From positions 1-22,491 of IMG/VR virus record IMGVR_UViG_3300033551_000047: a stretch of DNA of 22,491 nucleotides; one strand, written 5' to 3'. Below, piece by piece: positions 2 through 11,426 of this stretch. Position 1 is the stretch's first letter. Every line of letters begins with the position of its first letter. Under the pieces are notes generated by a model that saw only the letters and a list, made by a program, of their open reading frames with translations, searched no databases and was not told the origin of the DNA. The stretch comes from a virus. A program made the translations under genes and the position numbers.

Positions 2-229
2 GCAACGTTCCAGCTGTGTCCGCCGCATACGTGGGTGACCGCGCTGGACGAGATGGGGCAGCCCGCGCGGGACGCGGCCGGGAACACGTGGCAGCTCTGC
101 GGGGTGTGCGGGTTGAAGCAGCCGCCCCGCCCCTGCTGCTACCCGACCACGTGCGCAACGTGCCGCAGCGGCAGTCCGATCGGGGACTGCTGCCGGCCGC
201 TCGGGGATGTCTGCTCACTGCACCACTGA
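2..229 (+). CDS. 3' end of a Cys-rich protein, 5' end outside the window
   Basis: The frame is open from the window edge to a TGA at 227-229 and gives about 75 residues of C-terminal sequence. An internal ATG at 35 exists, but the frame continues upstream of it, so this is probably the tail of a longer gene. The visible part has about ten cysteines, including CGVC, a CC pair, CATC and a second CC pair, and ends in LHH. This resembles a small metal-binding domain, probably for zinc. I do not recognise a family. A hairpin/promoter cassette follows directly, so the gene ends a transcription unit. The cysteine pattern supports real coding, but the function is unknown and the start is not visible. 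Confidence 0.55.
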   Translation, partial: ATFQLCPPHTWVTALDEMGQPARDAAGNTWQLCGVCGLKQPPRPCCYPTTCATCRSGSPIGDCCRPLGDVCSLHH

Positions 230-324: not shown

Positions 325-2163
325 ATGACCTTCAACCTTCGTCCGTACCAGTCCGAGGCACTGGCCGCCGTTGAAGCGCAGTGGGCCGAGGGGATCAACC
401 GCCCCGTGATCGTCCTTCCCACCGGGGCCGGCAAGACGGTCTGTTTCAGCGGTCTGATCGCGGGCCACATCGAGCGGCTGCGGAAGCAGGGTCAGCGGGT
501 CCTGGTCCTCGCCCACCGCGAAGAGCTTCTGGAACAGGCCGAAGCGAAGATCAAGGCCATGGTTCCCGGCATCTGGACCGCGATTGTGAAGGGCAACCGG
601 GGTGCTCGCAAGCACCAGTTCGCGGACGTCGTGGTGGCCTCGGTGCAGACGCTCGCGCGCCCGAAGCGTCGCGCGGACGTGGACCGCATCGGTCTCGTCA
701 TCGTGGACGAGTGCCACCGCTACGCGTCCCGCACGTACCGGGAAGTGCTGGACCACTACGGGTGCATGGACGAGCGGGCCACCCCCACGGTCGGATTCAC
801 CGCGACGTTGACCCGCATGGACGGCGGACTGCCTGATGTCTGGCAGTCGGTGGCGTACTCGAAGAAGATTCATTGGATGATCAAGGAAGGCTTCCTGGTG
901 GCGCCGGTGGCCCGGTCCATCGACGTGCCGGGGCTGAACCTGGCGTCTACCCGAGTGACGGGCGGGGACCTGAACACCGGGGACCTGGCGGCAGCGCTGG
1001 ACGACAGCCACGCGTTCACCGCCATCGCCGAGACATGGTGCGCCGAGGCGAGCGAGCGGCAGACGATCGTGTTCATGCCGGACGTTGCCACGGCCGAGAA
1101 AATGGCCGAAGCCTTCAAAGCCGTGTGTGGCGCCACGGCCGAAGTCATCACGGGCGCAACCCCGAGCACCGAGCGGAAGGCCGCCTACGCCCGCTTCAAC
1201 AACTTCGAGACCCGCATTCTTGTCAGCTGCATGGTCCTGACGGAAGGCTTCGACGCGCCGGACACCAGCTGTGTCATCATCGGCCGCCCGACGCTGAACC
1301 CGGGCCTTTACATTCAGATGGTCGGGCGCGGGCTGCGGCTGGCCAGCGGTAAGACGGACTGTCTCGTCCTGGACATCGCGGGCGCCTCGCTGAAACACAA
1401 CTTGGCCGGCGTCAACGACTTGGAATCGGACTGCTCGGGCCGGTGTGACTGCAACTGCCTGTCATGTGGCTGCTCGGACCGGTGCAAGTGCGGCATCCGT
1501 CAGTGCGGGTGCAGGTGCGTCGAGCAGCACGAAGCACCGGGGAAGGCGTGCAACTGCGCCGGATCCGATCAGTGCGGGTGCGGCTGCCCCGGTGACCTGG
1601 ACGGTACCGGGCTGGACGCGTGCGCTTGCGGTATCAACCCTGACTGCGCCTGCCGTGGGGAAGGCCCGGTCCAGGCGGACAAGGAAGTGGCCGTTGAAGT
1701 CCTGAAAACCTTGGTCGATGTGGACATTCTCGGCACCGAGCTGGCCGCCTCGTCTCTCACGTGGCTGACCACGAAAGCAGGCATTCGCTTCCTGCCGGTG
1801 GGCCAGGACGTCAACCTGTTCTTGCTGCCGGACCCGAACGCGCCCGGCCAGTTCTTCCAGGGGAAGGTCAGCGGGTCCACGTCCAAGGCCCTGGTGTCCC
1901 GGCTGGACGAGGGGTCCACGGATCCTTCAGCGGCCCGTCAGGCGATGGAAGACTACGCCAGGTCCACCGGTTACACCTTCAACAACCGGAAGGCGTCCTG
2001 GCGCCGGACACCGGCGTCCGAGGCGCAGATCAGCCTGTTGAAGCGGATGTCCGAGCCGATCCCGGAAGGGCTGCGCAAGGGCGACGCCTCGGACATGCTG
2101 GCCGTGGCGAAGGTGTCGCGGATCCTGGACGGGCGCTTCGGGAAGTACGTGTCCGCCGCGTGA
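325..2163 (+). CDS. SF2 DEAD/DEAH-type helicase with a Cys-rich insert
   Basis: A 612-residue superfamily 2 helicase, probably acting in phage DNA replication, recombination or repair. Visible motifs are the Q-like LRPYQ near residue 6, motif I TGAGKT (33-38), the DECH box (128-131), motif III TAT within GFTATLTR, and motif VI QMVGRGLR. Immediately after the helicase core, residues 370-443 hold 20 cysteines in mostly CxC and CxxC spacing, with very little hydrophobic sequence. A separate C-terminal domain of about 165 residues follows. ATG 325 is chosen because AGGAAG sits just upstream and the promoter cassette ends there; the open frame extends back to 16 but would overlap the previous gene and the terminator. 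The helicase call is firm. The role of the Cys-rich part is unknown; metal or Fe-S binding is a guess from composition. Confidence 0.92.
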   Translation: MTFNLRPYQSEALAAVEAQWAEGINRPVIVLPTGAGKTVCFSGLIAGHIERLRKQGQRVLVLAHREELLEQAEAKIKAMVPGIWTAIVKGNRGARKHQFADVVVASVQTLARPKRRADVDRIGLVIVDECHRYASRTYREVLDHYGCMDERATPTVGFTATLTRMDGGLPDVWQSVAYSKKIHWMIKEGFLVAPVARSIDVPGLNLASTRVTGGDLNTGDLAAALDDSHAFTAIAETWCAEASERQTIVFMPDVATAEKMAEAFKAVCGATAEVITGATPSTERKAAYARFNNFETRILVSCMVLTEGFDAPDTSCVIIGRPTLNPGLYIQMVGRGLRLASGKTDCLVLDIAGASLKHNLAGVNDLESDCSGRCDCNCLSCGCSDRCKCGIRQCGCRCVEQHEAPGKACNCAGSDQCGCGCPGDLDGTGLDACACGINPDCACRGEGPVQADKEVAVEVLKTLVDVDILGTELAASSLTWLTTKAGIRFLPVGQDVNLFLLPDPNAPGQFFQGKVSGSTSKALVSRLDEGSTDPSAARQAMEDYARSTGYTFNNRKASWRRTPASEAQISLLKRMSEPIPEGLRKGDASDMLAVAKVSRILDGRFGKYVSAA

Positions 2164-5300: not shown

Positions 5301-5340
5301 TACCCGCTTCGGGGTTGCATCACTGACCCCGAAGCGGGTA
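5301..5340 (+). terminator. Terminator hairpin with embedded -35 (cassette 5)
   Basis: A perfect 15-bp stem, TACCCGCTTCGGGGT with its complement, and the 10-base loop TGCATCACTG. Confidence 0.75.
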
Positions 5341-5362
5341 TCGTCATGTTCAGCAACCGACC
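5315..5362 (+). promoter_or_regulatory. Promoter for the Nudix gene
   Basis: TTGCAT (5315-5320) at the top of the stem and loop, 18-base spacer made of the right arm, TATCGT -10 (5339-5344), then GCAACCGACC leader at 5353-5362. Confidence 0.65.
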
Positions 5363-6139: not shown

Positions 6140-6190
6140 TTGCATGTGAGGGGCAAGCCGTGTATCGTCTTCCTTGTAAGCAACCGCGAC
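6140..6190 (+). promoter_or_regulatory. Promoter for the 322-residue hypothetical gene
   Basis: TTGCAT (6140-6145), 17-base spacer, TATCGT (6163-6168), then TTGTAAGCAACCGC leader. The segment from the -10 to this leader is almost identical to that at 8039-8063. Confidence 0.65.
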
Positions 6191-8003: not shown

Positions 8004-8034
8004 TCCGCCCCGGTGTTGCACACACCGGGGCGGA
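8004..8034 (+). terminator. Terminator hairpin with embedded -35 (cassette 8)
   Basis: A perfect 13-bp stem, TCCGCCCCGGTGT with its complement, and the 5-base loop TGCAC. Confidence 0.75.
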
Positions 8035-8063
8035 CCTGTATCGTCTTCCTTGTAAGCAACCGC
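8016..8063 (+). promoter_or_regulatory. Promoter for the 115-residue hypothetical gene
   Basis: TTGCAC (8016-8021), 17-base spacer, TATCGT (8039-8044), then TTGTAAGCAACCGC leader. Confidence 0.65.
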
Positions 8064-8438: not shown

Positions 8439-8472
8439 CAGGGACGGGGTTGCATCCGCAGCCCCGTCCCTG
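8439..8472 (+). terminator. Terminator hairpin with embedded -35 (cassette 9)
   Basis: A perfect 11-bp stem, CAGGGACGGGG with its complement, and a 12-base loop that starts with TTGCAT. Confidence 0.7.
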
Positions 8473-8497
8473 TACAGTCGTACTCACAAGCAACCGC
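8450..8497 (+). promoter_or_regulatory. Promoter for the 228-residue hypothetical gene
   Basis: TTGCAT (8450-8455), 17-base spacer, TACAGT (8473-8478), then AAGCAACCGC leader at 8488-8497. Confidence 0.65.
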
Positions 8498-9212: not shown

Positions 9213-9248
9213 CCCGGCAGGGGGTTGCTTCGGTGGCCCCCTGCCGGG
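9213..9248 (+). terminator. Terminator hairpin with embedded -35 (cassette 10)
   Basis: A perfect 12-bp stem, CCCGGCAGGGGG with its complement, and a 12-base loop starting with TTGCTT. Confidence 0.72.
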
Positions 9249-9273
9249 TACAGTCGTACTCGTAAGCAACCGA
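9225..9273 (+). promoter_or_regulatory. Promoter for the small membrane protein/HicA-like pair
   Basis: TTGCTT (9225-9230), 18-base spacer, TACAGT (9249-9254), then TAAGCAACCGA leader. Confidence 0.65.
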
Positions 9274-11348: not shown

Positions 11349-11379
11349 ACGCCCCGGCAGAAACTTTCTGCGGGGGCGT
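11349..11379 (+). terminator. Terminator hairpin (cassette 12)
   Basis: A 14-bp stem with one G-G mismatch (ACGCCCCGGCAGAA and its near-complement) and the 3-base loop ACT. Confidence 0.7.
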
Positions 11380-11426
11380 TGCGCTGCCTGGCCGCAGCCT
11401 GTAGTGTCTTCCTTGTAAGCAACCGC
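11379..11426 (+). promoter_or_regulatory. Promoter for the 70-residue acidic gene
   Basis: TTGCGC (11379-11384), 17-base spacer, TAGTGT (11402-11407), then TTGTAAGCAACCGC leader. Confidence 0.6.

Follow-up and report, generated by a model that had tools for sequence, protein, structure and literature searches.

Within the 22,491 nucleotides of viral DNA analysed here (the window; positions 1 to 22,491 of IMG/VR record IMGVR_UViG_3300033551_000047), a gene for a RadD-like superfamily 2 (SF2) helicase carries, after its motor core, a block of 74 residues of which 20 are cysteines. We put at roughly 55% the probability that this block, as judged by its sequence, is a polynuclear metal-thiolate domain that takes the place of a zinc finger of the RadD type and serves to position or grip DNA. 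All DNA-level matches of the window were to Woodruffvirus-group Streptomyces phages, and the window itself belongs to a phage of Streptomyces that stands close to Woodruffvirus. The helicase gene is laid out as follows:

325..2163, + strand: RadD-like SF2 helicase gene, 612 amino acids (aa)
331..816, + strand: RecA-like domain 1, residues 3-164 (Pfam ResIII/DEAD; AlphaFold2 (AF2) model), with motif I (TGAGKT) at residues 33-38 and motif II (DECH) at residues 128-131
892..1389, + strand: RecA-like domain 2, residues 190-355 (Pfam Helicase_C; RadD alignment), with motif VI (QMVGRGLR) at residues 331-338
1432..1653, + strand: 20-cysteine block, residues 370-443, from the translation, its cysteines invariant in homologues
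1432..1518, + strand: A half of the block, residues 370-398, with 11 cysteines in 29 residues, basic (5 K/R, 2 D/E)
1519..1548, + strand: spacer VEQHEAPGKA between the halves, its H, E and P conserved
1549..1653, + strand: B half of the block, residues 409-443, with 9 cysteines (5+4) in 35 residues, acidic
1714..2160, + strand: C-terminal domain, residues 464-612, a beta sheet plus helices with no clear PDB match

Translation from the ATG at position 325, which is also the annotated start of YDN12 gp54 and TP1604 gp54, reproduced exactly the count and coordinates given in an earlier, sequence-only reading of this DNA, i.e., 20 cysteines in helicase residues 370-443 (window 1432-1653). They stand at residues 370, 374, 376, 378, 381, 383, 387, 389, 394, 396, 398, 409, 411, 417, 419, 421, 433, 435, 441 and 443. 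The spacing had been described there as CxC/CxxC, of which the CxC part held (n = 11) and the mixture did not, since there is a single CxxC; CC pairs are absent (n = 0), and the B half holds two CxC-x5-CxC units. Cysteine makes up 27% of the block (20/74) and F, W and Y none of it (0/74), and the helicase outside the block has 8 cysteines in 538 residues, a rate at which 20 or more in 74 residues would arise with a chance of ~8e-20, so that a chance origin of the count is ruled out. The same reading had set the block between the motor core and a distinct C-terminal domain, and had judged it far richer in cysteine than zinc fingers or classical iron-sulfur cluster helicases require; both statements proved correct (such a cluster takes 4 cysteines), with 20 invariant cysteines lying after motif VI and a DCLVLD strand and before a C-terminal domain that folds separately. 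Modelled alone by AF2, that domain was predicted well (mean predicted local distance difference test score, pLDDT, of 86.9), and a fold search with it yielded PDB matches of E 0.15 or Z 6.6 at best.

The block is under purifying selection. All 20 of its cysteines were invariant in each of the 15 phage records of at least 60% identity, which represent 12 distinct phages, and they recurred in full in ten IMG/VR contigs, seven of which are not copies of named phages. Among 14 sequences, the mean proportion of synonymous differences (pS) was ~0.45 throughout the gene, yet 20 of 20 cysteines were unchanged, and the ratio of nonsynonymous to synonymous proportions (pN/pS) was 0.28 in the block (computed for residues 373-448, which include 19 of the 20 cysteines; C370 is invariant too), as against 0.33 and 0.35 for the two RecA domains and 0.60 for the C-terminal domain. 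Mean pairwise identity was 0.85 for the non-cysteine residues of the A half, 0.79 for the motor, 0.71 for the B half and 0.64 for the C-terminal domain. Because the non-cysteine residues of the A half match the conservation of the motor while the C-terminal domain drifts, the A half appears to be more than a loose chelator; a folded surface would need these other residues and a passive metal sponge would not, which is an argument, not proof. Two other accounts of the block were considered and rejected: a recent DNA duplication, as there are no tandem repeats, and a hidden overlapping gene, as the pS of the block (0.449) equals that of the rest of the gene (0.42-0.45). In all homologues the block lies within a helicase some 610-630 aa long. 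No stand-alone relative was found, the best match in ten Streptomyces/Kitasatospora genomes being only E 0.26 or worse, and a scan of genome contigs with the block gave no match.

The motor itself is RadD/YejH-like, with motifs I, II and VI intact and a RadD-type core. Escherichia coli RadD was the nearest solved protein (phmmer 3e-41) and the best PDB match in structure comparison (Z 33.8, root-mean-square deviation 3.7 over 342 residues), and hhalign matched family residues 1-356 to RadD 1-361 with a probability of 100 and 36% identity over 338 columns. The structural alignment reached helicase residue 374 or 375, against RadD 391, i.e., the match to RadD stops at the start of the block, where the zinc fingers of RadD begin. 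Those fingers are formed by C384, C387, C411 and C425, and by C434, C437, C448 and C451, and the C437A variant did not rescue function in vivo (PMC9049331), while R428, a residue of the zinc-finger domain, is key to the binding of branched DNA (PMC9821108). The two proteins thus have an architecture in common (two RecA domains, a cysteine-rich metal region and a C-terminal domain), and they differ in that RadD has two 4-Cys fingers, ZF1 and ZF2, in a region of similar length, whereas the phage helicase has 20 cysteines in CxC spacing. With 184.5 bits against a cut-off of 720, the phage protein falls below the threshold of the NCBIfam RadD equivalog model (NF053632), and most database records label its homologues simply DNA helicase.

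We compared the linker (residues 350 to 470) among 229 distinct homologues taken from collections of viruses and genomes. A CPxC...CxxC finger is present at this linker in alphaproteobacterial members and in some from phages, among them the mycobacteriophages KayaCho and West99 with their 4-Cys finger. Five IMG/VR members (L035, L195, L196, L198 and L206) have, after motif VI, an 8-Cys module in one common arrangement, PCxxC-x4-PCxCxCxxC...C, and L197, which is 62% identical to L035, has 0 linker cysteines. L033, which is distantly related and comes from a metagenomic viral contig, has a nine-Cys CxC-style module in the linker after motif VI; its homology to the block was not shown, 344 of 1000 Cys-fixed shuffles scoring as high. 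The 4-, 8- and 9-Cys phage RadD-like helicases belong to the same gene family and carry their cysteines at the same linker position, but have fewer of them and in other spacings. In a motor-core tree, a quick and unrooted one with modest inner support, the 20-Cys group formed one clade (Shimodaira-Hasegawa-like approximate likelihood ratio test, SH-aLRT, 100), and at least 12 changes were needed to account for all linker states. Cysteine modules have thus been gained and lost several times at this linker, whose states are 0, 4, 8, 9 and 20 cysteines, and the linker, on this comparison, is the zinc-finger site of the family and a hot spot for such gain and loss, a point that the sequence-only reading had missed, with the 20-Cys block as the extreme case. 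Such a natural series at one linker provides a setting in which to ask what the metal region of the motor does.

The sequence-only reading had suggested that the block could bind several metals, and this is now strongly suggested by its 20 invariant cysteines, its lack of aromatic residues and its location at the RadD zinc-finger site, although the binding remains a prediction. The metal is most likely zinc. Several Zn(II) ions would fold the block, which lacks a hydrophobic core, into a compact domain, and this domain would stand in for the zinc-finger region that follows the motor and precedes the C-terminal domain in RadD/RecQ-type SF2 proteins. Its basic, tightly conserved A half would then contact DNA, whether branched or single-stranded, or orient the C-terminal domain, so that ATP-driven movement of the motor would be passed on to the substrate during phage replication and recombination. 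If true, this would show to what extent the zinc finger of a helicase can be remodelled, here up to the cysteine density of metallothionein, while strong selection on it persists.

Several points weigh against a DNA-gripping metal domain. Most relatives outside the Woodruffvirus lineage have 0 cysteines in the linker and therefore the motor does not need the block; the search among phage helicases that the sequence-only reading had proposed had a divided outcome, most relatives elsewhere lacking the block and no member of the genus being found to have lost it. The zinc-finger sequence and C-terminal domain of RadD do not align with those of the phage helicase (RadD is also absent among the fold matches of the C-terminal domain, an absence that excludes nothing), and RadD itself has no demonstrated helicase activity. 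That the A half probably contacts DNA is argued by analogy only. Finally, the AF2 pLDDT of the block was mostly 28-50, and its model was not used; such low confidence might be expected for a metal-folded stretch, and says nothing on how the block folds.

Metallothioneins are, like the block, cysteine-rich (about a quarter to a third of residues) and without aromatics, and in mammals they are stand-alone proteins of ~60 aa. The mammalian proteins resemble the block further in having 20 cysteines, rich in CxC and divisible into 11 + 9. In metallothionein II, these numbers make up the clusters M4Cys11 and M3Cys9 (PMC3447885). The mammalian order, however, is 9 and then 11, with CC pairs, where the block has 11 and then 9 in other spacing, and the block is internal to a helicase and has no sequence match to metallothionein: a 91-aa query containing it had no match at E 1 in Pfam or NCBIfam, metallothionein family models included, and the block alone gave nothing significant against PDB, Pfam, PHROG and NCBIfam. 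The 11 + 9 likeness is a testable count, not kinship. We would only tentatively take it further, to a two-cluster domain of the metallothionein type, with about seven metals as M4Cys11 and M3Cys9, placed at the zinc-finger site of a DNA translocase, whose metal loading or redox state would set the grip on DNA. A labile cluster would couple a DNA motor directly to metal or redox state. A second comparison is with the cysteine-rich Zn3Cys9 domains of the CXC/pre-SET type (MSL2, LIN54, SUV39), of which those of MSL2 and LIN54 bind DNA and arrange their nine ligands as 5+4, a layout that the B half recalls. Their consensus, CX[C/H]X2-13CX4-7CXCX5-60CX2-4CX1-2CX2-15CXN (PMC3447885), was matched in 0 of 14 homologues, also when the signature Asn was disregarded. 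A literature search of open papers found no description of a metallothionein-like phage helicase, and nothing quite like the block is named in the databases searched; what is new here is that the metal region of a RadD-like motor is so greatly expanded.

The sequence-only reading had also offered redox sensing or protection against oxidative or nitrosative damage. A redox or nitrosative switch, in which oxidation would release metal and alter helicase activity, or in which the block would be sacrificed to protect the replication machinery, seems doubtful. Zn-thiolate clusters are redox-active, and these phages also carry a gene for a WhiB-like protein, which is weak context for such a role, but WhiB genes are common in actinophages, and a redox scavenger would not need the strong conservation of the non-cysteine residues of the A half. 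It is unlikely that the metal-folded block instead docks a phage or host protein (SSB, polymerase or RecA) and not DNA: its lineage-restricted conservation would fit a lineage-specific partner, but no partner was identified, and the genes immediately upstream and downstream vary between Woodruffviruses. The cysteine-rich upstream gene was considered as a conserved partner and rejected, since it varies between phages. Less probable still is a metallothionein-like role as metal buffer or sink, storing or detoxifying Zn, Cu or Cd during infection, for which the 27% cysteine, CxC richness, lack of aromatics and 11 + 9 count would speak; the block is fused to a motor at a zinc-finger site, matches no metallothionein family and is constrained in its A-half non-cysteine residues like the motor. 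An iron-sulfur domain as in XPD/DinG-type helicases, which would also place a cysteine-rich domain within an SF2 helicase, is very improbable, because the known helicase domains of this kind have 4 cysteines inside RecA domain 1, whereas the block has 20 after motif VI, and the iron-sulfur-type spacings tested were absent.

In YDN12 and Geonosis the helicase gene belongs to a replication/recombination module, in which DNA polymerase I and a D5-type primase lie upstream of it and a RuvC-like resolvase lies downstream. Since primases of the D5 type normally come with a helicase domain of their own, the RadD-like helicase probably serves as an accessory or recombination motor rather than as the replicative helicase. 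Directly upstream in the window (2-229) is the end of a cysteine-rich gene with the pattern RPCCY..C..CRSG..G.CC.PL..VC..HH and no Pfam match; it is common to YDN12 (gp53) and one further locus (L005), with other genes in its place in other Woodruffviruses.

Ahead of the helicase is also one of seven copies of an intergenic element, TTGC-N(20-45)-GCAACCG, for which 0.58 copies were expected:

254-297 (ahead of the helicase, + strand), 5315-5359, 6140-6186, 8016-8062, 8450-8496, 9225-9272 and 11379-11425: TTGC...GCAACCG elements

The copies mostly lie 20-35 nucleotides before a start codon, and YDN12 has eight similar ones. By its sequence, each resembles a promoter (-35 TTGC, extended -10 TGTA) overlapping a GC-rich hairpin, and the copy ahead of the helicase is likely one; the GTTGC...GCAAC arms of the element could also pair. 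Downstream of the helicase, two 94-nucleotide intergenic copies (2160-2253 and 2404-2497), 96% identical and with a terminator-like hairpin, flank a 48-aa cysteine-containing open reading frame (about 2262-2405), like the boundary of a duplicated cassette. Relative to TP1604 and Asis, a genome end is joined to the genome start near window 14,139/14,140, a junction (around 14139) that an assembly would be expected to show if it were circularised or permuted. The gene after the helicase (2504-2890) has a match to PF22740 (1.1e-24), the C-terminal domain of RapZ, which is an RNase adapter domain and is met here in a phage.
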